From assembly GCA_934561555.1 (NCBI GenBank), contig CAKTGQ010000002.1, positions 124,001-188,000 of the forward strand: a DNA stretch of 64,000 nt, read 5' to 3'. Under the pieces are notes generated by a model. That model ran no database searches, was not told the origin of the DNA, and saw only the letters and a program-made list of their open reading frames with translations. Positions 19,604 through 33,680 of this stretch are shown one piece after another; positions within the stretch are counted from its first letter, which is position 1; the number at the start of each line of letters is the position of its first letter. Both the position numbers and the translations under genes were made by a program. The DNA comes from an uncultured Faecalibacterium sp. GTDB lineage: Bacteria > Bacillota > Clostridia > Oscillospirales > Ruminococcaceae.

Positions 19604-20932
19604 TTACTCGTTCATCTCCTGTAAAATCTTTGCGATCTGGGCGGGGGTGTAGCCCTCCTGCCGCAGGGCAGAGGTGATGGCTACCTCGTTCTTGCCCTGA
19701 CTGCGCAGCAGCGCCGCCGTGTAGGGCACCCCGGCGCTGATAGTGCTGCGGCTGCCGCCGGAAGCAGAACCGCTGCTGCCGGTGGTCTTTCCGCTGCCGG
19801 AGCTGCCGGCCTTTGTGCCCGCAGCCGCTGCTCTGCTGGCGGCCTGTGCGGCCTTCTGCTGAGCATTGGCCTGCTTCATTGCCCACTCACCCTTGGCGAT
19901 GTTCAGCTTCTGGGTAGTCACGTTATTGTTGAAGGCCTGCTGCTTCAGTGCGTCCTGATAGGCACGCTCGCTGGCGGTGTTGTCGTACTGCTGCTGGGTC
20001 AGTGCGTCCTGACGCTGCTTCTCCTGCATCTGCTGGTTCCACTGGGTGTCGGCACGCTCGGCCTCGTAGGCGCGGTCGCCGGCGTAGATGTTGTACCCGG
20101 CGTTCAACAGACTGCCCGCCAAGCTGCCCAGACCGGTGGTGCCGCTGATGGCCAGCTGCACCACATCCCCGATAACGCCCAGCACGGTCATAACGTTGTT
20201 GAACGCCTGCTGGCGCTGGCTGATCTGTGCCTGCTCCTGCGCGGTGTAGTAGCCATGCAGGGTGTCCAGCCGGTTCAGGTGCTCCTGATACAGGCCGTAG
20301 TCCTTGGCGTAGGCGTCGTTGTAGGCCTCGCCTTTCTGCTGCAGTTGGGTGTAGTAGTCCTGCAGCTGACGGTCATACAGGGTCTGGGCATTCTGCTCCT
20401 GTCCGTTCAGTTGGTCCAGCCGGTTCACCAGCTCCTCGCCGCCGCTCTGGTAGGTATCCAGCGCCAGACTGTACAGGGTGGGGATGGCGCTGGCCAGCCC
20501 GCCGATCTGCTGCTGATAGGCCTGCTGCGCCGCGCTGGTGGCATAGCTGGAGCCGTAGCCGCCGGTCAGGGCAGCCGCCTGCGCCGCCGCGTCCGCGCTG
20601 GCGTTGTGGGCGTTCTGGGTGTACAGCTGCTCATACTGGCGGTAGAGCGGGTCGCGGGTGTAGCTGTACTGAAAATTCTCCCGCTCCAGCAGTTGCCCCA
20701 GCAGCTCGTTGATCCTGTCCTGATAGCTGCTCTGGTAATCTGCGGGGCGGTTCTGCTGCCACTGCTTCAGGGCGTCGGCTGCATCAGTCACCTGCTGGCT
20801 GGGGCGGTAGCCGGCGTTTGCCATGGCCTTTTCCACATCGGCACGGCTGTTCAGCCCCTCGGTGCTGTAAGTGGGCTGCGCCTGCGTTTGCACATCCGGC
20901 TGCAGCAGCTCCTCCTTCTTTTTGGATGCCAT
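19604..20932 (-). CDS. Phage ejection/internal virion-like protein
   Basis: A 442-residue protein, last in the head module. It is very rich in Gln and Ala with long helical heptads (residues 60-240 and 285-360) and one hydrophobic Gly-rich stretch near 245-285 (VMTVLGVIGDVVQLAISG). A low-complexity Ser-Gly linker (about 365-395) separates a short C-terminal helical domain with ALRQEGYTPAQIAKILQEM. Position after the connector and hub genes, and composition, match the ejection proteins of short-tailed phages that enter the cell with the DNA. No sequence-specific family was recognised, so this is inference from context and composition. Confidence 0.55.
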   Translation of the reverse strand: MASKKKEELLQPDVQTQAQPTYSTEGLNSRADVEKAMANAGYRPSQQVTDAADALKQWQQNRPADYQSSYQDRINELLGQLLERENFQYSYTRDPLYRQYEQLYTQNAHNASADAAAQAAALTGGYGSSYATSAAQQAYQQQIGGLASAIPTLYSLALDTYQSGGEELVNRLDQLNGQEQNAQTLYDRQLQDYYTQLQQKGEAYNDAYAKDYGLYQEHLNRLDTLHGYYTAQEQAQISQRQQAFNNVMTVLGVIGDVVQLAISGTTGLGSLAGSLLNAGYNIYAGDRAYEAERADTQWNQQMQEKQRQDALTQQQYDNTASERAYQDALKQQAFNNNVTTQKLNIAKGEWAMKQANAQQKAAQAASRAAAAGTKAGSSGSGKTTGSSGSASGGSRSTISAGVPYTAALLRSQGKNEVAITSALRQEGYTPAQIAKILQEMNE

Positions 20933-20950
20933 AAAATTCTCCTTTCGTTC

Positions 20951-21136
20951 TTATAGCCCCTGCAGCTTGCTGCGCAGGGTGTCGGACATATTTTCCGTAT
21001 CCAGATTGGTCAGTACATACTGCAGCTGCTCCTGCATCTGGTACAGATAGCTGCGCAGCGCCCGGGCATCCTCCGGGTCCATGTGATCGCTGAGCTTGGG
21101 TACGCCCAGCTTGCTCAGGCCGTTCATGCTTGCCAT
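20951..21136 (-). CDS. Small phage protein
   Basis: A 61-residue protein of unknown function, starting MASMNGLSKLG and continuing with helix-forming DPEDARALRSYLYQMQEQLQYVL. Its start overlaps the end of the preceding gene by 13 bases, and GGAGGA precedes it, so it is probably translated by coupling. A longer frame upstream has no ribosome site. Similar 60-residue proteins with a Leu- and Gln-rich helix are often found between tail-hub and ejection genes. Confidence 0.6.
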   Translation of the reverse strand: MASMNGLSKLGVPKLSDHMDPEDARALRSYLYQMQEQLQYVLTNLDTENMSDTLRSKLQGL

Positions 21137-23004
21137 GAGGCATCCTCCTCCCATAATTTTCCCTTTGCCGGGGCGATGGTGCGCACAAGACCCCGCAGGG
21201 TGATTTGGCCCTTGCCGCGCAGCCGCAGCCGCAGCGACCCGCACCGCCGGGGCACAAAGGGCAAATCACAGCTGCGGCGGCTGCCTTGGGTGGCAAGAGA
21301 GGCTACCGTCTCCCACGCGCCGCCGTCATAGCTTACTGCCACCTCTACTGTGCTGGTGCGTTCGGCGTCCAGCCGCAAAGTCAGCCGGGAGAGATACCGC
21401 TGCTCGGTACCGTCCAGCCCCACATCGCCGGTGACCAGCTCAAAGGGGATGTCCGTTTCTACGCCGTCTGTGCTCTGCCAGTCCGGCTCGCGGGTGGGGT
21501 CTGCCGCCCACAGCGCCTGCCCGTCCCACAGATAAAGCTGGCCGCCGGTGCTGGTCATATCGCAGGAGCAGACGTCCTCCTCGCTCCACAACCCCTTCTC
21601 GGTATCGTAGACCAGCAGCCGGGCACTCTCCCGGGAGATGTGCAGGTAGTACCGGCCATCCAGCGCACCGCCCACGGCGCTTTGCACGTTGGAAAGCTTT
21701 GCAGCATCCAATGCGCCGGACACCTTGGTGGGCAGGCTGCCGTCCCACGCCATAACACCGTCCGGCGAGAGATAATACAGCGTCTCGTTCAGCACGCACA
21801 GGCTGCGGGCGGCGTTTTTGGCAACGCCACGGCAGCGCAGGCTGGAAAGCTGAAAATCCGAAGGCTTGGAGCCGTACAGCTTGTGCAGGGTGTTCTCCTT
21901 GAAGAACAGCGCATAGCCCATGCAGGAAGCCGCCCCAGTAAAAGCGCCATCGCTGCCCACGGTGACGGCGTAGCTGTCTGCGGCGATGCCCCGGTAACTG
22001 AACCAGTTGGTGGGGTCGCCCAGCTTGCAGCCGTAGATGACGTTCTCCTTGCTGTTGCAGCCCCACACCCGGTTGTCGCACTCGGTCACAAAATCCAGCT
22101 CCGGCACCCGGCGCTCCATGGATACCGTCTGGGCGGCGTCCACGCTGCGGTGCTGTTTGCCGTCCATGCTCTGCCACTGCGCAGCGGCGGCATTCTGCAC
22201 CAGTGTGCCGTAGAAATACTCGCCCTGCGGGGTGCAGCGCACCCGCAGCCAGTCCTCGCCCACGTCATACACGATCTGATCTCCGTTCAACTCCGGGCTC
22301 TGCCCTGCCGCTTCGGCGGCTGCGCCCTGCACGGTCACGGTGTCCCACTGCCGGAACAGCTCCCCCAGCCCTGCCGCCGTGATGCGGCAGTATTCCAGCG
22401 GGATGGCCGCCCAGCTGCCGGAGTTTTTGCTGTACATCTCCAGTGTGCTGTCGTACCGCCACGGGTGGTCGGCATCCTCTACCTTTAAAAACAGCTGTCC
22501 GTCTGCCGGTTCGGCGGGCTCGTCCCGGCCAAAAGCTTCCACCTGATAGGTCTTGCCTGCGGCATCGCAGGGGGCAAAGGTCACGCTTTTGCCCGCCGCT
22601 GTCCACAGCGCTCCCAGTGCGGTCACGCTGCCGTCTGCCGTATCGAAGGCCAGCTTGTCCGGGAAGATCAGGATTTTTGTGCCGATGCCCACCAGCGCCT
22701 TGCGGCCGTCGGTCACGGCGTCCGGTTTCGTCACCGCCGGGGCGGCGGCATCATCCGGGGTATAAACGATGTCCCGCCCGCAGACTGTCAGCAGACCGTT
22801 CAGGTGGTACATCCCGTTCAGCCCGGTCAGCGCCCGCAGTTTGCGGCGCGGGGTGCGGGTGCTCAGGGCAGGAAAATCCCGGGTGGAAAAGTTCACTCCG
22901 GCGCTGTACTCTGCTTCCGAGCAGCCGTAGGTCTCGTTCAGGCCGCCAAAGGCCCGCAGCAGCTGCCGGGTGTTGGCAAGCCGTATTCTGTCTGCCAGTA
23001 CCAT
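21124..23004 (-). CDS. Phage tail hub/nozzle-like beta protein
   Basis: A 626-residue, beta-rich protein without membrane segments. It has repeats that look like beta-propeller blades, for example CDNRVWGCNSKENVIYGC, LYYLSPDGVMAWDG and LYLWDGQALWAADP, and a C-terminal beta-sandwich-like part. In short-tailed phages the gene after the connector encodes the tail nozzle or DNA-stabilisation protein (P22 gp10 type), and this length and composition fit. The start follows AAGGAGGTGA. The assignment rests on gene order and predicted fold, not on a recognised signature. Confidence 0.55.
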   Translation of the reverse strand: MVLADRIRLANTRQLLRAFGGLNETYGCSEAEYSAGVNFSTRDFPALSTRTPRRKLRALTGLNGMYHLNGLLTVCGRDIVYTPDDAAAPAVTKPDAVTDGRKALVGIGTKILIFPDKLAFDTADGSVTALGALWTAAGKSVTFAPCDAAGKTYQVEAFGRDEPAEPADGQLFLKVEDADHPWRYDSTLEMYSKNSGSWAAIPLEYCRITAAGLGELFRQWDTVTVQGAAAEAAGQSPELNGDQIVYDVGEDWLRVRCTPQGEYFYGTLVQNAAAAQWQSMDGKQHRSVDAAQTVSMERRVPELDFVTECDNRVWGCNSKENVIYGCKLGDPTNWFSYRGIAADSYAVTVGSDGAFTGAASCMGYALFFKENTLHKLYGSKPSDFQLSSLRCRGVAKNAARSLCVLNETLYYLSPDGVMAWDGSLPTKVSGALDAAKLSNVQSAVGGALDGRYYLHISRESARLLVYDTEKGLWSEEDVCSCDMTSTGGQLYLWDGQALWAADPTREPDWQSTDGVETDIPFELVTGDVGLDGTEQRYLSRLTLRLDAERTSTVEVAVSYDGGAWETVASLATQGSRRSCDLPFVPRRCGSLRLRLRGKGQITLRGLVRTIAPAKGKLWEEDASWQA

Positions 23005-23016
23005 CGCCTCACCTCC

Positions 23017-23406
23017 TTACCAGCGCCACTGCGCCCGGCTGCGGGGCGGGTAGTTCTGCCGCAGCCAGACCGCCAGCTCTGCATACAGGGCGTTGTACTG
23101 TGCCTGTTCCCCGGCGTAGCGGTCGGTCTCGCCCAAGGCGGCATCCATCTGCGCACACAGCAGGTGCGGGTACAGGGCATCAAAGGGCGGCGGTGCCAGC
23201 AGCGTCTGGTCGTCCTGCACCGGCTGCTCCCATGGACGGTCTGCACCTACGGCGTCAAACACCCCGGCGGCGCTGCGGTCAAACAGCTTTGTGCGCAGCA
23301 GGGCGTCCGCCTCCCGCAGCCATTGCAGCCGGGTCTCGGTTTCAATGCGGCAGTTTGGGCGCAGCTGCTCGGCACGCTCCAAAGCCTCTCCTATGGTCAA
23401 TCTCAT
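23017..23406 (-). CDS. Phage head-tail connector (gp4-like)
   Basis: A 129-residue helical protein that resembles adaptor proteins of short-tailed Firmicute phages: an N-terminal ALERAEQLRPNCR, then RLQWLREADALL, a Pro-rich LLAPPPFDALYPHLLCAQMDAALGE and a C-terminal AVWLRQNYPP. Such proteins bind below the portal ring and close the DNA-filled head. It lies between the capsid block and the tail-hub gene, where P22 gp4 lies. The ATG at 23406 is used; a GTG directly before it is also possible. Confidence 0.65.
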   Translation of the reverse strand: MRLTIGEALERAEQLRPNCRIETETRLQWLREADALLRTKLFDRSAAGVFDAVGADRPWEQPVQDDQTLLAPPPFDALYPHLLCAQMDAALGETDRYAGEQAQYNALYAELAVWLRQNYPPRSRAQWRW

Positions 23407-23475
23407 CACATCCTTTTTATAAAAAGCCCGGCCGGGGGCATTTCTCCCAGCCGGGCAGCGTTGATTTTACAGATT

Positions 23476-23688
23476 TTACTGCGCCGCGTTCTCCGCAGCG
23501 GCAATGCGGGCAGCGGTCAGTTCGTCCTGACGCTGGCTGTGCTCCAGCACCTCGGCCACAGCGGGCGGCACCTCCACCTCCACGCCCCGGCGGATCTTAT
23601 AATTCACGCCGTTGACGCTGACGAACAGATCACCCTTGTAGCGGCTGTTGTCCTTGAACAGCCGGATGCGCACATTCTTTTCAGCCAT
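23476..23688 (-). CDS. Small phage protein next to capsid gene
   Basis: A 70-residue protein. It starts MAEKNVRIRLFKDNSRYKG, has a beta-rich middle with VSVNGVNYKIRRGVEVEVP and ends in an Ala- and Glu-rich helix. The R-G-V-x-V-E-V-P block is common in small proteins next to N4-gp56 capsid genes. It may be a head decoration or capsid-accessory protein; this is inference from position. The start follows GGAGG 10 bp after the capsid stop. Confidence 0.65.
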   Translation of the reverse strand: MAEKNVRIRLFKDNSRYKGDLFVSVNGVNYKIRRGVEVEVPPAVAEVLEHSQRQDELTAARIAAAENAAQ

Positions 23689-23698
23689 GGGCACCTCC

Positions 23699-24697
23699 TT
23701 AGTTGGCGGCAGCGGTGGCAGAGTAGCTGGACACGCTCTCAATGCGCACCATGTACTGCTCCACCAGACGCTCGGCGGCACGCATACCCTTCCAGCCCAC
23801 AGAGGCGCGCTGGTTCAGCGGGTCGTCGCCGTAGCCCAGCTGCTTGACGATATGCTCAAGGCCGCCGCCCTCCAGCTCGGTCACGCCGTAGGCGTGGGCA
23901 CCCAGCACCAGCGTGCCGAACACTGCCAGACCCGCCGGGCAGGTATCGTCCTTCCAGATCTTGGCCTCGCTGGTCTCGATAAAGCGGATGTTGCCCAGCT
24001 TGCCGATCTCGCCGCGGAACATGGTATCGGGGTCGGCGTACTTGTGCACCTCCATGAACTCCTTGCAGGTCTTGAGGTCGTAGGCTGCGTAGGGGTGGAT
24101 AATGGCAACGTAGCTGTCGCCGATGGGGTCAGCGTTCATCGCACCCAGCTGCGCCGCTGCCTGAAAGAACAGCTTGGGGGTCAGGGTGCAGCTCTTGTCC
24201 AGCGCCTTGCGGCTGGTAACGGCGGTCTCGGCACCGTCTGCGCCCAGCTTCGGGGCGTAGATGACATTGGTGCCGCCCGCCAGCACATCGCGGGTGATGC
24301 TGTCCATGGTGCGGCCGGCCTGACTTGCCAGCACGCGGGTGGCCTGCACCACGTTGTTGTCGATAGCGGTCATCTGCAGCACATCGGTCAGCGGGGTCCA
24401 GCCGCCGTACTGGTGCAGGTCGCTGGTGATGCTGGTCACGTTCAGTGCCTGACCGTTGGGGGTAACGCCCTCGGTCAGCGGGGTGCTGGCCTTGGGCAGG
24501 CTGTCGTACTTGCGGAACTCGATGGTCTTGCCGCCGTTCTGGGGCACAGGGTAGTAGTCCGCAAACTGGTCGTGCACAAGGCGCGGCTCTGCCTGATCGA
24601 TCAGGCGCTTCTCGTAAAAGGTCTTCATCTCCACCGACATGGTGCCGGTGGTGTTGGTCTGTGCGTCCGCAAACAGCTGGATATTAAAATTCATCAT
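23699..24697 (-). CDS. N4-gp56 family major capsid protein
   Basis: A 332-residue major capsid protein of the N4-gp56 type: TFYEKRLIDQAEPRLVHDQF near the start, KTIEFRKYDSLP, the LTEGVTPNG loop near residue 75, a helical spine around residues 115-135 (RVLASQAGRTMDSITRDVLA) and a C-terminal TLVLGAHAYGV. The N-terminus reads MMNFNIQLFADAQ. Residues 3-10 match the Prp protease site known from ribosomal protein L27 (LNLQFFA, cut after the Phe), so the mature coat probably begins at Ala10. The likely protease is the fusion protein encoded just upstream. Confidence 0.9.
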   Translation of the reverse strand: MMNFNIQLFADAQTNTTGTMSVEMKTFYEKRLIDQAEPRLVHDQFADYYPVPQNGGKTIEFRKYDSLPKASTPLTEGVTPNGQALNVTSITSDLHQYGGWTPLTDVLQMTAIDNNVVQATRVLASQAGRTMDSITRDVLAGGTNVIYAPKLGADGAETAVTSRKALDKSCTLTPKLFFQAAAQLGAMNADPIGDSYVAIIHPYAAYDLKTCKEFMEVHKYADPDTMFRGEIGKLGNIRFIETSEAKIWKDDTCPAGLAVFGTLVLGAHAYGVTELEGGGLEHIVKQLGYGDDPLNQRASVGWKGMRAAERLVEQYMVRIESVSSYSATAAAN

Positions 24698-24721
24698 GCT
24701 TTTTTCCTTTCTCCTGTCGGG

Positions 24722-25648
24722 TCAAAGTTCAATTTGTGCACCGTGCAGCACACGGCGCTCCAAGGCCTCCCGCTGGGCGCGGGTCATGGCGGCTACGTCC
24801 GGCCGTACCGAAGCGGCAGCGCCGGGGCGCAGGCCGTTTTCCAGCGGACGCGCGGCGCGCTGCTGCACCCGCTCCACAACCCCCTGTTCCACGGTCTGTG
24901 CCGTGGTGCGCAGGGCATCCTCGTAGTGAGCAAGGCGGTAGGCGTCCTGCACCCGCATGCCGGGCAGCTGCATCAGGCGGCGCATCTCCGGGTTCTTCAG
25001 CTCTGCTTTCAGGTCAAAACCCGGCTGGCTGCGGCGCATGGCCGCTTCCTCTGCCGCCCACCGGGCGTGCAGACCGCGTACCGTGTTTTCTACCGGCAGC
25101 GGCAGGGGCGGCAGCACCGGGCGCTCCGGCTGTGCAGGTGTTTCCGGTTGCTTCTCCGGCTCTGCCGGAGTCTGCCGGGGCGCTTCCGGCTGCGGGGCGG
25201 GGGCTTCCGGCTTCAGCGTGCCCGCAGCCACCGCCTGCCGGGTCTGCTCCGGGCTCAGTGCGGGGGCAGCTTCGCCTTCCGCAAACAGCTGCAGGTCCAT
25301 CATGCTCTGCTGCCCGCTGCGGCTCACATCCGCAAAGCGCAGGTTATCCGGGTAGCGCTCTGCCAGCAGGGTAAAGCCTGCCTTGGCCAGCTCAAATGCG
25401 CCCTGCACCCACGGCGCTACCGGTGCCTGTGCCGCCACCGCAAGGCGCGGGCCCTCTGGCTCGTCCCAAGCATCGCTGCGGGCGCTCTCCTCCCCTGCCA
25501 GCAGGTACACCAGCGCCTGCATCAGGGTGCTTGCACCGGCGCATACGATATCCTGCCCGGCGGGCGCGTAGCCCGCGTGACCGGCGGCTTCCAGCCGCAG
25601 GCTCAGCCCCTTGGGGCCGTCCAGCTCGCTGTAACATACCTTGATCAT
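24722..25648 (-). CDS. Prp-type protease fused to phage scaffold
   Basis: A 308-residue fusion. Residues 1-108 are a Prp domain (cysteine protease that trims ribosomal protein L27): GHAGYAPAGQDIVCAGAS holds the catalytic His24 and Cys36. Residues 116-126, MMDLQLFAEGE, carry a Prp cleavage site with the cut expected after Phe122. Residues 124-308 look like a scaffold: Pro/Glu-rich linker, a charged coiled coil (LHARWAAEEAAMRRSQPGF onward) and a C-terminal TRAQREALERRVLHGAQI typical of N4-gp56 phage scaffolds. The gene lies between portal and capsid, the usual scaffold/protease position. An internal start at Met116 has no good ribosome site. Self-release of the scaffold and coat trimming by one enzyme is the inferred role. 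Confidence 0.82.
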   Translation of the reverse strand: MIKVCYSELDGPKGLSLRLEAAGHAGYAPAGQDIVCAGASTLMQALVYLLAGEESARSDAWDEPEGPRLAVAAQAPVAPWVQGAFELAKAGFTLLAERYPDNLRFADVSRSGQQSMMDLQLFAEGEAAPALSPEQTRQAVAAGTLKPEAPAPQPEAPRQTPAEPEKQPETPAQPERPVLPPLPLPVENTVRGLHARWAAEEAAMRRSQPGFDLKAELKNPEMRRLMQLPGMRVQDAYRLAHYEDALRTTAQTVEQGVVERVQQRAARPLENGLRPGAAASVRPDVAAMTRAQREALERRVLHGAQIEL

Positions 25649-25649
25649 C

Positions 25650-27434
25650 TCACTTCACCTCCTTTCCGTTCCAGTTCATGGCGCGGGCAGCCGCCGCCAC
25701 CGGCAGCTGTGCCGTCAGACCGGCAGTGTCCTGCGCCGCTTGGGTGCCGCCGGGCTGCTGTGCAAGAGCGGCAGAAAGTCTTGCCATCTGCCCTTGCAGC
25801 TGCACCAGCTGCTGCGCCAGCGTGCCGTTCTGCCGCACCCGGGCGCGCACCTTTTCCACCCCTTCAAAGTCCATCATTTCCAGCGCCGCAAGAGCCGCGT
25901 CCGCGTTCGCCGGTGCAAAAAATCCCAGCTGGTAGCACTCCTTGGCGGTCTCGTTCTGGGACAGGCGGCTGAAGGTGCTCTTTTTGGCAGCGCTGACCAC
26001 GATGTCAAAGACAGGCTCCCGACTGCCCAGCTCCACCCCGCCCACGGCGGGCACGGGCTTTGCGCGCAGCCCCTGCGCCGAGAAGGGTACGAACTCGCTC
26101 TCGCCGCGCTGGCCGGTGATGCGGAACACCCGCTGCTCATCGTAGAACTGCCGCATCAGCTCAATAATGAGATAGCACTGCTTTGCAAAGGCGCGGTAGG
26201 CGCTCTTGAGCATATCGCGGCTCAGCTTGCTGCCCGCCTCCTGCAGGGCAGCGATGGCGCTGGCGGCGGTCACACCGCCGGTGGTGCCGCCCTGCGTCAG
26301 GTCGCGGTTTCCGCTGATCTCCTTCAGCTCCTCAATGCGGCTGTTGCGATAGCTCAGGCTGTTGCCCTGCAAGCCCGCCGTTTGCAGCGGACGGAAGCTG
26401 TCCTCGTTCAGGCGGCCCACAACGTGCACGATGTCCCGGCTCAGGTCGGCCAGCTCCTCCTCGTTCACCCCGGCGGTATCGCTGAGCACATACCGCTGGC
26501 GGGACGCCAGCAGCACGTTCTCGTCCATGGCGTGGTTCATCCGGTCAATGGCGTTCTGGCAGTCCTTCATCACATCGATGTAGCCGAACCCGGCAGGGGA
26601 ATCCTCCTCCACAAACAGCGGGTCGAACACAAAGGGGTACTTTCCGTGGTCGTACAGGCCGCGCGCCGCCAGCGCCGGGTCGTTCTGGCTGGCATACAGC
26701 ACCACGCCGTTGCACAGCTTGCAGTAATGCAGCCGCAATTTGCCGTTCTCGTCCGGGCGCTTATAGTACCAGTCCACCACCACGCTCTTGTTGGCGGTGG
26801 TCTGGCCGTCCTCGTGGATGTACCGGGGCACGTCCACCACACCGGCGGCGTGCCCTGCCAGCTGCGGATACTGCGCGGTCAGCCGGGCGGTGTCCTCAAG
26901 GCTGAGGTGGAACAGATCCGGCGAGTCCTGAATATCCTGCACGCCCGGCTCCCAGTAGAGCATGAGCAGGTTGACGCTGCGCACCGCAATGTCGCCCAGC
27001 CCGCCGCGCGCCGCCGGGTCCCAGAAGATGCCGGTAACGCCGGTGCCCTGCTTGAGCTTGCGCCACCAGACATCGCTGTACACCTGCTCGTAATCCGCCT
27101 GTTCCAGCACCACCGGCAGCACGCTGGAAAGCGCCTGCGCCGTGGCCTGATCGTCTGCCGCCCGGGGCAGCACCATGGGCTCGGGGTAGTTGTCCATGGC
27201 ATCGGCGTGCTTGTTGGCGATGCTGTTGAACAGCCACCCGCTGGAGGGCTGCGCCTTGCCGGGCATCAGCGGGTCGCGGTAGTTTTTCCAGTGTCCCATG
27301 CGGAACCACAGCTCGTTGTCGATCAGGCGCTTGTCCAGCGCCGCCTTGCCCGCCTTGTAGCGTTGCAGCGTCTGCAAGGCAGCCGCCGCCTCTGCCGCGC
27401 CGATGGGCAGGGCTTCTGCTCTTGTATCTTCCAT
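25650..27434 (-). CDS. Phage portal protein
   Basis: A 594-residue portal protein, the dodecameric ring through which DNA enters the head. It shows the pattern of P22-like portals from Firmicute phages: DNELWFRMGHWKNYRDPLMPG near the start, WLFNSIANKHADAMDN, WDPAARGGLGDIAVRSVN, a RMNHAMDENVLLASRQRYVL helix and the GGTTGGVTAASAIAALQEAGSK loop. The C-terminal 90 residues are an Ala- and Gln-rich crown. It follows the large terminase by 16 bp and ends one base before the start of the protease-scaffold gene, whose ribosome site lies inside the portal's last codons. Confidence 0.88.
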   Translation of the reverse strand: MEDTRAEALPIGAAEAAAALQTLQRYKAGKAALDKRLIDNELWFRMGHWKNYRDPLMPGKAQPSSGWLFNSIANKHADAMDNYPEPMVLPRAADDQATAQALSSVLPVVLEQADYEQVYSDVWWRKLKQGTGVTGIFWDPAARGGLGDIAVRSVNLLMLYWEPGVQDIQDSPDLFHLSLEDTARLTAQYPQLAGHAAGVVDVPRYIHEDGQTTANKSVVVDWYYKRPDENGKLRLHYCKLCNGVVLYASQNDPALAARGLYDHGKYPFVFDPLFVEEDSPAGFGYIDVMKDCQNAIDRMNHAMDENVLLASRQRYVLSDTAGVNEEELADLSRDIVHVVGRLNEDSFRPLQTAGLQGNSLSYRNSRIEELKEISGNRDLTQGGTTGGVTAASAIAALQEAGSKLSRDMLKSAYRAFAKQCYLIIELMRQFYDEQRVFRITGQRGESEFVPFSAQGLRAKPVPAVGGVELGSREPVFDIVVSAAKKSTFSRLSQNETAKECYQLGFFAPANADAALAALEMMDFEGVEKVRARVRQNGTLAQQLVQLQGQMARLSAALAQQPGGTQAAQDTAGLTAQLPVAAAARAMNWNGKEVK

Positions 27435-27450
27435 AATCTTTCCTTTCTTT

Positions 27451-28896
27451 TCAAATGCGGTAGAACCGCGCCTGCCGGTGCAGCTCCAGCGGGTCGTCCG
27501 GCCTTGGCGGCGCGGCAGAGGCCTCGGGCGGGCTGATGGGGTGCTCCATCAGCACATAGCGGCACTCGTCGTAGATGTGATCCTCCTGCCGGGTGTCGAT
27601 ATCCTCCACATTGCTCTCGTCGTACACAAGGTTCGGCAGGGTGCGGATGAAGTGCTTGCAGCTGCTGAACACCTGCAGCATTGGCCGCCCGTCCGGCGCG
27701 AACCGCAGCCGGTAGTGGAACTGCATCTTGCCTGCCAGCCGGGTGTGGTCCCCGGGCTGCCAGCGCAGAAAATGCGGGCTGCGCTCCATCATGGCCGCAA
27801 TACTCTCGCCCCGGCTCTCGTCAAAGATGGCGGGGTCTGCCACCCCATGGATCACCCTGCCCCGCAGCAGCGGATCGTTCTGCTCGGCCTCCCGGATGCG
27901 CTTGGCCTGCTCCACCGGGTCAATGCGCAGACCCTCGTTGGGGCGTCCGGTGCAGCCGTACAGCTCCTTAATGCGGTACAGCCGCCCCTCCTCGTCCACC
28001 GCATACCACCCCACCGAAAAAGGCTTGGAAAAGCCGAAGTCGTACCCGCGCCAGATGGGCCAGTGCTTGGGGATGGCAAAGGGCGCGATAACGTGGGTCC
28101 AGCGCTGATCCTGATAATGCGCCGGGTCGTTGCGCCATTCGGTAAACACCTGCCCGGAAAAGCTGTCCCAGCTGCCGTAGAGCAGCGCCTGCTTTTCCGC
28201 CTCCGGCAGGCTGGCAAGGCTTGCCAGATACCCGGGGTCGTTGGCCAGCAGGGCGGGGTTATCGAACACGCTGGACGGGATGAACACCCGCGCCCGCTCC
28301 ATCTGCTGGTCGGTGCCGTCCGGCAGGCGCACCGTGACGGTTTCCACAATGGGGGTGCCGGGCGGGGCGGGGGTGATGAACCGCGCCTTCACCCAGCCGT
28401 GGCCGATGCCGCCGGGGTTGGTGGTGGCACGCATATACACCCGGGTGCCCGGCCCGGTGGGGCGGTTGCGGCTCATCATGTAGCTGTACTCGTCCCACTC
28501 AAAGTGGGTCAGCTCGTCAAAGCCGATAAAATCGTAGGCTTTGCCCTGATAGTTGGTGCGGTCCTTGGTGTACTGCATGGAGCCGAACCAGATCTTTGCC
28601 CCGCTGGGAAACACCCATACATGGGAGGTGGCGTTGTACTGCGCCTCCGGGAACGCCCGGCGGTAGTACATCTGGCTCTTGTCCACAAGGTCGGAAAGCT
28701 GCGGGTAGGTCTTGCGCAGGATCAGCGCCCGGTAATGCGGGATGTGCACCTGCCGCAGTGCTTCGATCAGCAGTGCATCGCTCTTGCCGCCGCCCGCCGC
28801 GCCGCCGTACAGCGCCTCCGGCTCCGGTCTGCGCATAAATTCCAGCTGCCGGGGCTGCGGCTTCCACACGATGACTGCCCGCTCTGCTCTGTTCAT
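27451..28896 (-). CDS. Phage terminase large subunit
   Basis: A 481-residue DNA-packaging motor. The ATPase domain has Walker A GGAAGGGKSD at residues 31-40, LILRKTYPQL, and Walker B-like FIGFDELTHF near 135, followed by SRNRPTGP and TTNPGG coupling motifs. The nuclease domain has GYDFGFSKPF with a metal-binding Asp and HGVADPAIFD later. Terminase_6-type folds use this order. It starts at 28896 after AGGAGG, overlapping the stop of the preceding gene by 4 bases; longer frames have no ribosome site. Confidence 0.92.
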   Translation of the reverse strand: MNRAERAVIVWKPQPRQLEFMRRPEPEALYGGAAGGGKSDALLIEALRQVHIPHYRALILRKTYPQLSDLVDKSQMYYRRAFPEAQYNATSHVWVFPSGAKIWFGSMQYTKDRTNYQGKAYDFIGFDELTHFEWDEYSYMMSRNRPTGPGTRVYMRATTNPGGIGHGWVKARFITPAPPGTPIVETVTVRLPDGTDQQMERARVFIPSSVFDNPALLANDPGYLASLASLPEAEKQALLYGSWDSFSGQVFTEWRNDPAHYQDQRWTHVIAPFAIPKHWPIWRGYDFGFSKPFSVGWYAVDEEGRLYRIKELYGCTGRPNEGLRIDPVEQAKRIREAEQNDPLLRGRVIHGVADPAIFDESRGESIAAMMERSPHFLRWQPGDHTRLAGKMQFHYRLRFAPDGRPMLQVFSSCKHFIRTLPNLVYDESNVEDIDTRQEDHIYDECRYVLMEHPISPPEASAAPPRPDDPLELHRQARFYRI

Positions 28897-29180
28897 GCTT
28901 TTTCCTCCTGTTCCACCGGCGGCAGCAGCACCACGCCGCACTCTGTTCCTTCCAGCTCTGTGCCCTGATCATTCAGGGTCTTTACCACGCCCGCCAGATC
29001 CTTGAGCACGGCGGTGGCCTCCTTCAGCCCCTTCATCATCCCGGGGTCGGGGGTGTTCTCCCGCCGGGCGGCTTTCTGCCGCTCGTTCAGCTCCTTCACC
29101 TCCTGCGCCAGCAGGGTGCTCAGGGTGTCGGCGGCGCGGTTCAGGCTCTTCAGCCCGGCGGCGGGCTTTGTCTGCCCCAT
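28893..29180 (-). CDS. Putative phage terminase small subunit
   Basis: A 95-residue charged helical protein that begins MGQTKPAAGLKSLNRAADTL and continues with LLAQEVKELNERQKAARRE, GMMKGLKEATAVLKDLAGVVK and an acidic end. No helix-turn-helix is evident. It is the first gene of the module and directly precedes the large terminase with an ATGA overlap, the standard place for a small terminase. That position is the main reason for the call. The start follows AAGGAGG; a longer frame to 29246 is unsupported. Confidence 0.55.
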   Translation of the reverse strand: MGQTKPAAGLKSLNRAADTLSTLLAQEVKELNERQKAARRENTPDPGMMKGLKEATAVLKDLAGVVKTLNDQGTELEGTECGVVLLPPVEQEEKA

Positions 29181-29807
29181 GATGTTCTTCCTCCTTTCGT
29201 CCGGTGTCCCGGGCTCTGTACACAGGATATCACCCGCCCGCCGCATCCGACAGTGTGCACTTTCGCAGGGTCATTTGGTATTTTTATGAAAGCATTATCC
29301 AAACAGTATATTTTTTATTTTCAAGGCGCAACGCAGCTGCGTCAGTTTTATCTTTCCGGCTGGTGCGGCGCGCAGAAAACGTCCGCTCGTATTTCGGGCA
29401 CCTCCCACAAAAACGTTCGCTGCGCCCCGCCCGCCCTATCACTATAAAGGTACAGTGCTGCCGTGCCCCAAGGCCGCAGCACCGTCCCCGCCCGGGGAGC
29501 AGAACTTTTCTCGACCTGTGTTGTTTTTCCCGCCCAGCAAGAGTGTATAAAAGGCGTTTTCTTTCCGCTGCGTAGTATCCCTGAAAATATCTTTCAAGAA
29601 ATGTATCGCCCATTTTCGCGCTTTTTTAGCAGTCATGCAACATTCGGTCATGTTCAAGGGTGTTTTTTTACATACCTGCATCATATTTGTATGTTGGTTG
29701 CAACGGCATGAAAAATTGTGATAATTCGTGAAAAGATTTTGTAACCTTTGGTCCGCTTTTGTAGAAACGTAACAAAACATTTGCACCAATCTTGTGAACT
29801 TATTCTC
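29181..29807. other. Intergenic region between phage module and mgl
   Basis: No gene, RNA or repeat is supported in these 627 bases. The left part must hold the promoter of the phage module, but no convincing pair of boxes was seen. The part from 29630 to 29800 is AT-rich and may serve as an upstream element for mglB. Confidence 0.5.
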
Positions 29808-29877: not shown

Positions 29878-29915
29878 GAATATGCTGTGATACACAAATG
29901 AAGGAGATTACTGTT

Positions 29916-30959
29916 ATGAAAATGATTTCTCGTCGCGACTTCCTGAAGGCTTCTGCCGTTGTGGGCGCTACCGCTGCTATGACCGCTTGCGGCGGTTCTT
30001 CCTCCAGCACCGCTGCTTCCAGCGTTGCATCTTCCACCGCTGCTTCTGCCGCTGCTACCAACGGCTCCGCCAACATCGGCGTTTGCATCTATCAGTTTGC
30101 TGATAACTTCATGACCCTGTACCGCTCCGATCTGGAAGGCTACCTGAAGGACATGGGCTACTCCGTCACCATCATGGACGGCAAGAACGACCAGAACACC
30201 CAGACCGAGCAGATCAACACCTTCCTGCAGCAGGGCGTGGACGTGCTGGTCATCAACCCCGTCCAGACCACTTCCGCTCAGACCATCGTTGACACCGTTT
30301 CTCCCTCCGGCACTCCCATCGTGTTCATCAACCGTGAGCCCGAGGAGAGCGTTCTGGATTCCTACAAGGGCAAGTGCTGCTACGTTGGTGCTGACGCACG
30401 TCAGTCCGGTACTTATCAGGGCGAGCTGATCCTCGAGACCGAGACCCAGGGCGATATCAACGGCGACGGCAAGGTCACCTACATCATGTGCAAGGGCGAC
30501 CCCGAGAACATCGACGCTCAGTACCGCACCGAGTTCTCCATCAAGGCTCTGACCGATGCCGGCAAGGAAGTTGAGTGCCTGTACGAGTACCTGGACAACT
30601 GGGATCAGACCACCGCTCAGCAGGACGTTGCAAACGCTCTGTCTCAGTACGGCGACAAGATCGAAGTCGTCTTCTGCAACAACGACGCAATGGCACTGGG
30701 CGCTCTGCAGTCCATCCAGCAGGCTGGCCGCACCGTTGGCAAGGACGTCTACCTGGTCGGCGTCGATGCTCTGGTAGAGGCTGTGCAGAACGTTGTCGAT
30801 GGCAACATGACCGGTACCGTTCTGAACGACGACGTGGGTCAGGCTACCAAGGCTGCCGAGGCTACCAAGCTGTTCGTTGACGGCAAGGACGTGGAGAAGT
30901 ACTACTGGGTCGACTACGTCAAGGTCACCAAGGACAACGCTGCTCAGTACCTGAAGTAA
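29916..30959 (+). CDS. mglB: Galactose-type ABC substrate-binding lipoprotein
   Basis: A 347-residue periplasmic-binding protein type 1. The N-terminus has a twin-arginine-like SRRDFLKAS followed by the lipobox MTAC, so the mature protein is a lipid-anchored surface protein after Cys near residue 26; a Ser/Ala-rich linker follows. The ligand domain matches galactose/glucose-binding MglB, including a calcium-binding loop DINGDGKVTY near residue 190, a FCNNDAMALGA motif and VYLVGVDAL. It is the first gene of mglBAC, which imports galactose or methyl-galactosides. A hairpin between mglB and mglA probably keeps more mglB mRNA. ATG 29916 follows AAGGAG. Confidence 0.92.
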   Translation: MKMISRRDFLKASAVVGATAAMTACGGSSSSTAASSVASSTAASAAATNGSANIGVCIYQFADNFMTLYRSDLEGYLKDMGYSVTIMDGKNDQNTQTEQINTFLQQGVDVLVINPVQTTSAQTIVDTVSPSGTPIVFINREPEESVLDSYKGKCCYVGADARQSGTYQGELILETETQGDINGDGKVTYIMCKGDPENIDAQYRTEFSIKALTDAGKEVECLYEYLDNWDQTTAQQDVANALSQYGDKIEVVFCNNDAMALGALQSIQQAGRTVGKDVYLVGVDALVEAVQNVVDGNMTGTVLNDDVGQATKAAEATKLFVDGKDVEKYYWVDYVKVTKDNAAQYLK

Positions 30960-31028
30960 GACCAAAGTTTCCCTGAAAAGAATGCAAGGTGCGCAGCAGG
31001 CCTTAACGGCTTGAATGTAAGCTAAAAA

Positions 31029-31072
31029 GCGCGTGCGTGCGAGAAAACATCTCCACGCACGCGCCTTATTTT
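31029..31072 (+). terminator. mglB-mglA intergenic hairpin
   Basis: GCGCGTGCGTG, loop, CACGCACGCGC, then CTTATTTTA. A weak or partial terminator that could lower mglAC relative to mglB. Confidence 0.65.
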
Positions 31073-31121
31073 AGAAAAAAGCTGCCCGCCTGTAAACAAC
31101 CAAAAAGGAGGCTTTTGCGGA

Positions 31122-32663
31122 ATGTCAGAATACCGTCTGGTAATGAAAGGCGTGGTCAAGACCTTCCCCGGTGTCAAAGCCCTGGATCATGCACAGCTGG
31201 AGCTCCGTCCCGGCAAAGTCATGGCTCTGATGGGCGAAAACGGCGCCGGTAAGTCCACTCTGATGAAATGTATGTTCGGCATTTACAAGATGGACGAGGG
31301 CGAGATCGAATACGAGGGGCAGAAGGTAACCATCCCCACCCCGCTGGATGCACTGGACCGTGGCATCGCCATGGTGCATCAGGAATTGCAGCCCATTCCG
31401 GCCCGTACCGTGGCTGAGAATATCTGGCTGGGGCGCTACCCCACCAAGAAATACGGCGTTATCACCGTTGTGGACCACGCCAAAATGTATAAAGATACCG
31501 ATGAACTGCTGAAGAAACTGAAGCTGGACATCGACCCCCATGCAAAGCTGGGCTCTTTGAGCATCGCCCAGATGCAGATGGTGGAAATCGCCAAGGCCGT
31601 TTCCGCCAACTGTAAGGTGCTGATTTTGGACGAGCCCACCTCTTCTCTGACCGCGAACGAGGTCGAGAGCCTGTTCCGCATCATGCGGGATCTGAAGGAG
31701 CAGGGCGTTGCTCTGGTCTACATCAGCCACAAGATGGACGAGATCAAAGTCATCGCGGACGAAGTTACCATCATGCGCGATGGCCAGTACATCGGTAAGT
31801 GGGACGTTGCCAACATGACCAAGGAAGAGATCATTGCAAAGATGGTCGGCCGTGAGCTTTCCAACCTGTTCCCCCCGCTGGAGAACGTGCCCTCGGACGA
31901 GGTCATGATGAAGGTGGAGGACTTCACCTCCATCCATCCCCGCTCCTTCCGTCATTGCAGCTTTGAGCTGAAAAAGGGCGAAATTCTGGGCGTTGCCGGT
32001 CTGGTGGGCGCACAGCGTACCGAGCTGATGGAAGGCATCTTCGGCCTGCGTGCCCATACCTCTGGTAAGGTGTGGATCAAGGGCGAAGAGGTCAACATCA
32101 AGCAGCCCCGCGATGCCATCCAGAAGAGCGTTGCTCTGCTGACTGAGGACCGCCGTGCTACCGGCATTCTGGGCGTGCTGAGCGTTGCCGATAACATCTC
32201 CATCGCTTCTCTGGACGCCCTGCGCAAGGGTCCCATCATGCTGGACAACCAGAAAATCCTGGATCTGGTGGCTACCAACAAGGAAAAAATGGCCATCAAG
32301 GTGCCCAGCCCCAAGACCCAGATCAAGAGCCTTTCCGGCGGCAACCAGCAGAAGGTGCTGATCGCCCGCTGGCTCGCCAACAACCCCGATGTGCTCATTC
32401 TGGACGAGCCTACCCGCGGCATCGACGTTGGTGCAAAGTATGAAATTTACTGCATCATCGCCGATCTGGCCAAGCAGGGCAAGAGCATTATCATGATCTC
32501 CTCTGAAATGAGCGAGATCATCGGTATGTCCAACCGTGTCATGGTCATGTGCGATGGCCGTATCACCGGCTTTATCAACGGTAAGGATGCCACGCAGGAG
32601 AACATCATGGCGCTGGCCACCCAGTTCGAGACCGCACCTGACGCAGCTGCGGCAAATCAGTAA
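31122..32663 (+). CDS. mglA: Galactose ABC transporter, ATP-binding protein
   Basis: A 513-residue double ATPase of the sugar-importer class (MglA/RbsA). The first domain has Walker A GENGAGKST at residues 39-47, a Q-loop in VHQELQP and Walker B VLILDEPTSSL. The second domain has the usual degenerate Walker A (VAGLVGAQRTEL), then LSGGNQQKVLIARWL and LILDEPTRGIDVGAK. The C-terminal LATQFE region is typical. It lies between mglB and mglC on the same strand; the start follows AAGGAGG at a slightly long distance. Confidence 0.96.
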   Translation: MSEYRLVMKGVVKTFPGVKALDHAQLELRPGKVMALMGENGAGKSTLMKCMFGIYKMDEGEIEYEGQKVTIPTPLDALDRGIAMVHQELQPIPARTVAENIWLGRYPTKKYGVITVVDHAKMYKDTDELLKKLKLDIDPHAKLGSLSIAQMQMVEIAKAVSANCKVLILDEPTSSLTANEVESLFRIMRDLKEQGVALVYISHKMDEIKVIADEVTIMRDGQYIGKWDVANMTKEEIIAKMVGRELSNLFPPLENVPSDEVMMKVEDFTSIHPRSFRHCSFELKKGEILGVAGLVGAQRTELMEGIFGLRAHTSGKVWIKGEEVNIKQPRDAIQKSVALLTEDRRATGILGVLSVADNISIASLDALRKGPIMLDNQKILDLVATNKEKMAIKVPSPKTQIKSLSGGNQQKVLIARWLANNPDVLILDEPTRGIDVGAKYEIYCIIADLAKQGKSIIMISSEMSEIIGMSNRVMVMCDGRITGFINGKDATQENIMALATQFETAPDAAAANQ

Positions 32664-32681
32664 TTAAGGAGGCTGTCTATC

Positions 32682-33680
32682 GTGGAAGCTACCAAAAAAT
32701 TGAATGGCAAGGCTGTGGGCAAGTGGCTCAGCAACAACGCCATTATCATGATGATGCTGGCCGTCACTCTGGTCGTTGGCATCATGCACCCCAACTTCTT
32801 CTCCGGCACCAACATGATCAACCTGTTCAAGAACGTGTCCATCCGCTACATCATCGCGCTGGGCATTTCCGGCTGCCTGATCACCACCGGTAACGACCTG
32901 TCCGCTGGCCGTCTGGCTGGTTTTGCCGCCTGCCTTGCCTGCATTTTTGCGCAGACCGAAGGCGCTTCCGGCAAGTTCTACCCCAATATGCCCACCCTGT
33001 CCACCCCCGTGGTGTTCATTCTGGTCATTGCCATCTGCGCCATCGTGGGTCTGTGCAACGGTCTGGTGGTCAGCTACCTGAAGGTGCAGCCCTTCATTGC
33101 TACCTTGGGTATGCAGCAGGTGGTCTACGGTATCTGCCTTGTGTACACCGGCGGTACCCCCATCGGCTCTTTGAACAAAAACTTCACCTCTCTGGCCTCC
33201 AACACCATCCTTGCCGTTCCCGTACTGATCTGGATCGCCCTGATCGTGGCTGTCTGCTTCTGGTTCCTGTACAACAAGACCCGCCACGGTAAGTATATGT
33301 ACGCCATCGGCGGCAACGAAGCTGCTGCTGAGGTGGCCGGTGTCAACGTTTACGCCACCAAGATCCGCATCTACATTCTGGCCTCCTGCATGTTCGGTCT
33401 GGCAGGCTGCCTGCTGGCTGCAAAGTCCGGCGGCGCATCCGTCAACACTGCAATGGGCTATGAGCTGGACGCCATCGCAGCCTGCACCATCGGCGGTGTT
33501 TCCACCACCGGCGGCGTCGGCACCGTTCCCGGCGTTCTGGTCGGCGTTCTGGTCTTTGAGCTGATGAAGGTCGCTCTGCAGTTCATGAACGTCAACTCCT
33601 CCTACACCTACATCGTTCAGGGTCTTGTCATTATCGTGGCTGTCGCCATTGATATCCGCAAGTATCTGGCTAAGAAGTAA
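32682..33680 (+). CDS. mglC: Galactose ABC transporter, permease
   Basis: A 332-residue permease with about ten membrane helices, of the RbsC/MglC class. Family marks are the GxxDLSAG motif seen as TTGNDLSAGRLAG near residue 67, QQVVYGICLVYTGGTPIG, and the coupling segment YAIGGNEAAAEVAGVN near residue 208. The last third has CTIGGVSTTGGVGTVPG. It starts at a GTG after AAGGAGG, 18 bp from mglA, and is followed by a strong terminator, so the operon is mglBAC only. No regulator gene is adjacent. Confidence 0.95.
   Translation: MEATKKLNGKAVGKWLSNNAIIMMMLAVTLVVGIMHPNFFSGTNMINLFKNVSIRYIIALGISGCLITTGNDLSAGRLAGFAACLACIFAQTEGASGKFYPNMPTLSTPVVFILVIAICAIVGLCNGLVVSYLKVQPFIATLGMQQVVYGICLVYTGGTPIGSLNKNFTSLASNTILAVPVLIWIALIVAVCFWFLYNKTRHGKYMYAIGGNEAAAEVAGVNVYATKIRIYILASCMFGLAGCLLAAKSGGASVNTAMGYELDAIAACTIGGVSTTGGVGTVPGVLVGVLVFELMKVALQFMNVNSSYTYIVQGLVIIVAVAIDIRKYLAKK

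Follow-up and report, generated by a model that had tools for sequence, protein, structure and literature searches.

The window analyzed here, a 64,000-nucleotide stretch of Faecalibacterium DNA, carries a gene in which the cysteine protease Prp and a putative capsid scaffold are encoded as a single chain. Judging from its sequence, the product is likely a self-carrying, self-cleaving maturation protease-scaffold that works much as its herpesvirus counterparts do, but with a different enzyme; we infer the cutting, its order, and whether it proceeds in cis or in trans. In the mechanism we propose, this one chain would double as scaffold and maturation protease for FpGTA I, a gene transfer agent. 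The scaffold part would bring Prp into the procapsid at a fixed ratio, and Prp would then cut the chain at DLQLF122/A123, either in cis or from a neighboring chain, as well as the capsid leader at NIQLF9/A10. These cuts would part the protease from the scaffold and trim the coat ahead of or during the packaging of ~8.5 kb of host DNA, with scaffold and protease leaving or being lost as the DNA enters. The fusion itself is real and conserved, and it is probably functional.

The fusion gene and its cluster

The fusion gene (24722..25648, minus strand) is a single, unbroken ATG frame encoding a protein of 308 aa, estimated at ~33 kDa, and the Shine-Dalgarno-like sequence AAGGAGGTGA 5' of its start ATG provides a strong ribosome-binding site. 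By profile, catalytic dyad, and predicted fold, the N-terminal domain (residues 1-105; 25334..25648, minus strand) is Prp. The first-pass annotation had placed a Prp domain with His24 and Cys36 within the first 110 residues and a scaffold at residues 124-308, and the profile searches run as a check agree with both assignments. PF04327 (Peptidase_Prp) covers residues 13-103 with E 1.4e-11 and 44.9 bits, above its curated cut-off of 27, and residues 194-308 match phrog_13908 (E 1.4e-18). A profile of 17 fused relatives, compared with PDB sequences, matched the solved Prp structures 2g0i, 2idl, 4peo/7kld, and 7jvs. In this comparison H24 (codon 25577-25579) and C36 (codon 25541-25543, both minus strand), whose numbering was right, align with H22 and C34, the catalytic dyad reported for S. 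aureus Prp (SaPrp; PMC9405229). The active-site residues H24, D33, C36, and S40 are invariant in 17/17 fused relatives. The same is true of the full set G23, A25, G31, D33, and S40, which corresponds to the supporting residues G21, A23, G29, D31, and S38 of SaPrp (PMC9405229).

The AlphaFold2 model of the fusion (mean pLDDT 74, pTM 0.39) is consistent with this division. Block pLDDT values in the Prp domain range from 84 to 95 apart from the block that holds the active loop (70, residues 21-30), the joint region at 115-129 falls below 50, and the C-terminal part is predicted to be helical, with its helices lying within residues 184-301. The best 14 PDB rows that Foldseek returned for the model comprise 7kld, 7jvs, 4peo, 1s12, 2g0i/2g0j, and 2idl (TMt 0.72-0.82). 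The first four are S. aureus or T. maritima Prp, by title or according to PMC9405229, while 2g0i/2g0j and 2idl are streptococcal proteins titled uncharacterized that are Prp homologues by sequence. The remainder of the chain, the putative scaffold part (residues 124-308; 24725..25279, minus strand), consists of a Pro-rich linker and then the helical part. phrog_13908 is likewise found in the split relatives L112, L111, and L120 (E 5e-49 to 2e-38); this family is without function in PHROGs, and the scaffold label derives from position and from the naming used in the FpGTA I paper.

The gene lies within a ten-gene, 9.6 kb cluster (19604-29246, minus strand throughout) composed of a small gene, TerL, portal, Prp-scaffold, capsid, and five more. 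The first gene (28893..29246) has no convincing family match among Pfam/PHROG-type profiles and is a probable small terminase by its position and the FpGTA I gene list. It is followed by the terminase large subunit (27451..28941; PF03237, phrog_979), a P22-like portal protein (25650..27434; PF16510, E 3.1e-31), the fusion, and the 332-aa major capsid protein (23699..24697; phrog_1357, E 2.9e-84; PF25209, E 4.6e-11). Beyond the capsid lie a small conserved head gene of uncertain start (23476..23781; phrog_15239, E 1.3e-22), a conserved gene that by position is a possible head-tail adaptor (23017..23409; phrog_12105, E 1.5e-22, with no function assigned there), an internal virion/short-tail protein (21124..23004; phrog_511, E 5e-48), a small conserved gene of uncertain start that accompanies the cluster in relatives (20951..21244), and a last gene of no assigned function that occupies the same place in relatives (19604..20932).

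By comparison with its published description, this cluster is the gene transfer agent FpGTA I, fixed in Faecalibacterium. FpGTA I was described in January 2026 as a 10.5 kb ten-ORF operon in 12/12 Faecalibacterium genomes examined by its authors and is, in their words, the first gene transfer agent from the human gut microbiome; particles of ~40 nm from ATCC 27766 contained 8.4-8.9 kb of packaged DNA, with packaging of host DNA reported, and mass spectrometry was reported as well (Borodovich et al. 2026; PMC12946183). It shares with the cluster in the window the genus, the ten genes, and the listed products TerS, TerL, portal, scaffold, and capsid, and the coordinates given for APC918/95b (PMC12946183) yield a span of 9.6 kb, similar to that found here. 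Strains ATCC 27768 and APC923/51-1, both named in that paper, carry this module. Unlike our reading, the paper labels the gene head scaffolding, and its main text contains none of the terms protease, Prp, cysteine, and cleav (PMC12946183).

The same genes occur in the same order throughout the genus, as far as the stretches examined reach. Among 32 genus stretches, 16 have the window's m16 or ABC-transporter neighbors, and in 13 of these PAP2/DUF1643/Bmp flank the opposite side as well. The remaining 16 comprise two prophages along with stretches that are short or diverged. In the window, a sugar-type ABC transporter (Peripla_BP_4, ABC_tran, BPD_transp_2) and an M16 peptidase adjoin the cluster (29898-33680 and 34154-36907, plus strand), and members of the genus differ as to which of the two is the immediate neighbor. 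No integrase or replication gene was found among the 9 cluster and 9 flanking proteins scanned, and the nearest integrase match lies ~7 to 35 kb from the cluster in four complete genomes. The phage setting initially assigned to this DNA needs correction: the element is the fixed FpGTA I cluster and not an ordinary phage, even though a related fusion occurs in two Faecalibacterium prophages. An ordinary prophage was rejected as an identity for the cluster on the basis of its chromosomal place, gene content, and selection.

The FpGTA I cluster is under purifying selection. Pooled over nine or ten moderately diverged pairs for 7 of the ten genes, omega is 0.08 for the capsid, 0.09 for TerL, 0.11 for the portal, 0.15-0.16 for two tail-side genes, and 0.21 for the last gene. 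The whole fusion yields 0.16, with 0.12 for Prp, 0.25 for the linker stretch, and 0.11 for the scaffold. The highest single-pair values, 0.43 for Prp and 0.38 for the capsid, both come from L116/L117. One could imagine the cluster to be a decaying prophage remnant and the fusion a chance read-through, given that it is only ~10 kb and that the joint is disrupted in one genome (L094). We regard this as exceedingly improbable, since pooled omega is 0.08-0.21 over seven genes, the cluster is conserved across the genus, and particles with mass spectrometry are reported for FpGTA I (PMC12946183).

The joint site and the capsid leader

The joint reads MMDLQLF/A (residues 116-123; 25280..25303, minus strand), with a predicted cut between F122 and A123, and the capsid opens with the leader MMNFNIQLF/A (24668..24697, minus strand), a predicted Prp site cut after Phe9. 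Both motifs had been noticed at the outset, as MMDLQLFA at the joint and as one of the same type at the capsid start, and they are indeed present as M116-M-D-L-Q-L-F122-A123 and MMNFNIQLF9-A10. The joint looks like the enzyme's own cutting site. Host Prp is reported to cut after Phe in the scaffold (FNLQFF'A) and capsid (LNLQHF'A) of phage 80alpha and in S. aureus L27 (LNLQFF'A) (PMC9405229, PMC5744158).

Across 23 non-redundant fused proteins (the set that remains after removing 4 near-identical rows), M116, L119, Q120, and F122 are invariant in 23/23, with the codons of the motif varying synonymously (the Met of M116 has no alternative codon). The mean modal fraction is 0.97 in motif columns 118-123, compared to 0.64 for residues 124-134 and 0.45 for the Pro-rich residues 140-185. 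All 29 non-redundant capsid leaders contain [LI]Q.FA, with the P1 Phe located at residue 7 to 18. When residues 104-190 of the close relative L089 were shuffled, [LI]Q.F[AG] arose in 334 of 100,000 shuffles, and there were 0 matches to it in five other module genes (151 proteins, 67,311 aa). The sites in the two proteins also tend to agree with one another. In 39/58 thinned loci the P2 residue is the same in the scaffold or joint as in the capsid, compared to a shuffled mean of 28.4 and 0/5000 shuffles as high, a statistic that ignores kinship; it differs in the other 19/58, which weighs against the proposed cutting. In some genomes, scaffold and capsid have an odd site in common, such as QHFA (L298), QRFA (L273), QWF (L257), NIQLLA (L274), PQLFA (L312), and KLHT.MFD (L122).

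The same motif could conceivably serve as an assembly or chaperone tag tying together scaffold, capsid, and Prp, in which case Prp would bind the leaders and cutting would be dispensable. There is precedent for this in 80alpha, for which the N-terminal sequence of the scaffold is reported to be needed for assembly while its cleavage is not, and an uncleavable capsid is viable (PMC5744158). By analogy, the joint motif may be kept for binding, which weighs against the proposed cutting. M116 is also among the invariant residues, and protease recognition alone gives no obvious need for that. Despite this, a tag that is only bound seems a poor prospect to us, as none of H24, C36, D33, S40, and the P1 Phe varies, whereas the nucleophile would be expendable if the domain did no more than bind.

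M116 could also have a different role. Free scaffold might come mainly from internal translation at its ATG, leaving the fused form as a minor protease carrier in the manner of herpesvirus UL26.5 and UL80.5. M116 is ATG in 23/23 fused proteins, GAGGAG lies just 5' of it in some species, and the mean anti-Shine-Dalgarno energy before it (-7.1) is closer to that of true module starts (-8.5) than to that of other internal Met codons (-3.8). However, synonymous shuffles of the same residues reach -6.9, p is <0.1 in only 2/23 loci, and the close relative L089 reaches only -3.2. As the sequence upstream of M116 is no better than its synonymous shuffles, the amino acids alone explain it and there is no sign of selection. 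Hence, we consider an internal start unlikely.

Host Prp and ribosomal protein L27

If Prp does act at these sites, the question is which Prp. In 80alpha, scaffold and capsid are reported to be cut by the Prp of the host (PMC5744158), and the same could apply here with the fused Prp as a mere passenger. This is very improbable, because 32/32 Prp matches in the 31 genus genomes fall within head-gene clusters and L27 is short in 24/24 genomes read. PF04327 is present in 30/31 genomes at these 32 places, and the profile identified no Prp outside of a head-gene cluster. L27 was found in 27/31 genomes, and all 24 that were read have the short MAHKKG form without a Prp leader. In G001, the gene before L27 is by eye L21, and its L27 is likewise short. 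The host form of Prp is recognized by a place beside rpmA and a long L27 as substrate, and the fusion instead sits in a head-gene cluster. With no other Prp and a short L27, a host Prp seems unavailable. Faecalibacterium thus seems to have dropped the host Prp along with its ribosomal substrate, while keeping the Prp of the gene transfer agent. Among 30 hand-picked other genera of the family, of which 29 were read, short L27 occurs in 15/15 without Prp and the long leader in 14/14 with Prp. The parallel to 80alpha is therefore partial. Both systems feature Prp together with LQ.F/A sites on scaffold and capsid (PMC5744158, PMC9405229), but the 80alpha enzyme is the essential L27 protease of its host, whereas here it is cluster-encoded and scaffold-fused, with no host Prp found.

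The notion that phages bring Prp because their host lacks one was unsupported, as two Prp matches were found in each of G075, G113, G133, G191, and G304, genomes that come from other genera and contain a separate match to the scaffold. In the family survey, alignments of host prp to the fused model often run through the prp stop codon and reach model position 131. Because an rpmA with the leader M..QFFA follows prp there, the host prp-rpmA border resembles a fusion joint interrupted by a stop.

Fused and separate arrangements and their parallels

By profiles alone, 26/32 Prp places in the genus are fused, and 26/26 of these have LQ[LM]F[AG] at the joint. This count was made with profiles only because a motif-aided count over 33 loci (the 32 genus places plus the viral contig L001, which is otherwise counted only among viral contigs and not among the 26) had used the motif itself; it gave 27 fused with M[MVI][DE]LQ[LM]F[AG], 5 separate (L111, L112, L118, L119, and L120), and 1 disrupted. 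In the last, L094 (genome G175, minus strand), the first DLQLFA is followed by another LQLFA-like stretch and a shift of frame, which place Prp and scaffold in different frames. In a scan of species genomes, 21/40 loci were fused, 21/21 of them in Faecalibacterium, and the profiles placed none of the 19 weaker loci among the fusions, 16 having Prp alone and 3 separate genes. Similarly, when 297 genomes of the family were searched with the fused profile, every full-length hit among the matches listed came from Faecalibacterium. A protein search with the fusion returned 4543 matches, and each of the 120 listed has PF04327 and spans 87-100% of the query. A sequencing or assembly artefact was rejected on the basis of the 26 fused places in the genus and this coverage.

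Viruses encode both arrangements. In the phage collection, 7 unannotated records match the fusion and 73 records match the capsid (40 listed). The single fusion protein recovered one locus from viral contigs, and a profile scan of IMG/VR recovered 141. Of the best 80 of these, classed by home-made profiles and with near-copies included in the counts, 23 are fused, 31 have separate Prp and scaffold, and 26 are other. LQ[LM]F[AG] is present at the joint in all 23 fused contigs, and the capsids of all 23 have the site. Separate genes, which the first-pass annotation had named as the expected arrangement, are therefore real, occurring in these 31/80 viral contigs and in 5 genus loci. The separate-gene viral contigs and faecal phage records have homologous genes in the order prp, scaffold, capsid, and many have LQ.FA-type sites, the difference being two genes instead of one. 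Among the 31 separate viral scaffolds, 19 have [LI][QH].F[AG] near the N-terminus; of the 12 without this strict motif, which count against the proposed cutting, six have variants and six have none within the 70 residues inspected. For Bacillus phage Pascal and Paenibacillus phage API480, whose capsids are related, neither a Prp signature nor a site was found in the ORFs read near the capsid.

The prp and scaffold frames overlap by 4 to 11 bases in L111, L112, and L120, and a small change could thus fuse or split the genes. To account for the fused label, a capsid tree built from 62 rows requires at least 4 changes of state on well-supported branches. Its root is unsure, these changes may be gains or losses, and the histories of capsid and scaffold genes may differ. 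The fused pair L260/L265 is placed apart from the Faecalibacterium group on this tree, and its joint likewise has LQLF[GA]. The split L120 stood beside the prophages on a cruder earlier tree, but does not on the capsid tree. These prophages occur in two genus genomes and contain a second, diverged fused copy, with integrase and M15 endolysin present in both and holin and repressor checked in one. Their loci (L230-L097-L231 and L232-L100-L233) are ~38 kb long, encode a protein of 3,400-3,600 aa in addition to the fused Prp-scaffold, integrase, and endolysin, and by eye adjoin lon-like genes. The separate-gene clusters L111 and L118 (genomes G167 and G173) continue into lysis genes within ~13 kb, L111 having a tail-protein match, a GH25 lysozyme, and a holin, and L118 similar genes by eye. 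It is possible that the ~38 kb prophages are living relatives of the FpGTA ancestor, and a single unit may once have comprised both FpGTA I and the lysis operon FpGTA II.

The joining of a protease to a scaffold has parallels elsewhere. In lambda C/Nu3 and P2 gpO, protease and scaffold share a reading frame, with protease families that differ from Prp. The assemblin fold of herpesviruses is also unrelated to Prp, and the herpesvirus cleavage-site sequence is different. No assemblin occurs among the Foldseek rows listed for the fusion model. According to PMC7920273, herpesvirus UL80a/UL26 is similar to the fusion in having an N-terminal protease, a C-terminal scaffold, and proteolytic separation of the two, and it carries the protease into the procapsid; unlike here, the protease is of the Ser-His type and a separate scaffold-only product is made. 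Since its domain is Prp, the fusion is not a member of the assemblin family, even if the two may work alike. Protease-scaffold fusions and the cutting of phage heads by Prp are thus known separately, whereas we have not met their union in a gene transfer agent, within a genus in which no host Prp was found, in the open-licence literature, where no title on a Prp-scaffold fusion was found among the matches listed.

We lean, by a little, toward a broader reading as well. Prp would serve as head-maturation protease in a wide range of phages with prp-scaffold-capsid cassettes, and it would have been fused to its own substrate more than once with the site kept at the joint, in convergence with the herpesviruses. 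The Faecalibacterium gene transfer agent would have inherited such a fusion, and the cell would meanwhile have shed its own Prp together with the L27 leader, such that the sole Prp now serves the particles.

The fusion suggests how the particles of a gene transfer agent could mature without an enzyme of the host cell. It proposes a maturation protease for a gene transfer agent of the human gut, which is testable with particles already made, and it provides a bacterial case of a protease-scaffold fusion built on an enzyme other than that of the herpesviruses. Prp biology would here be freed from the ribosome, as the L27 genes read in this genus have no leader for Prp.
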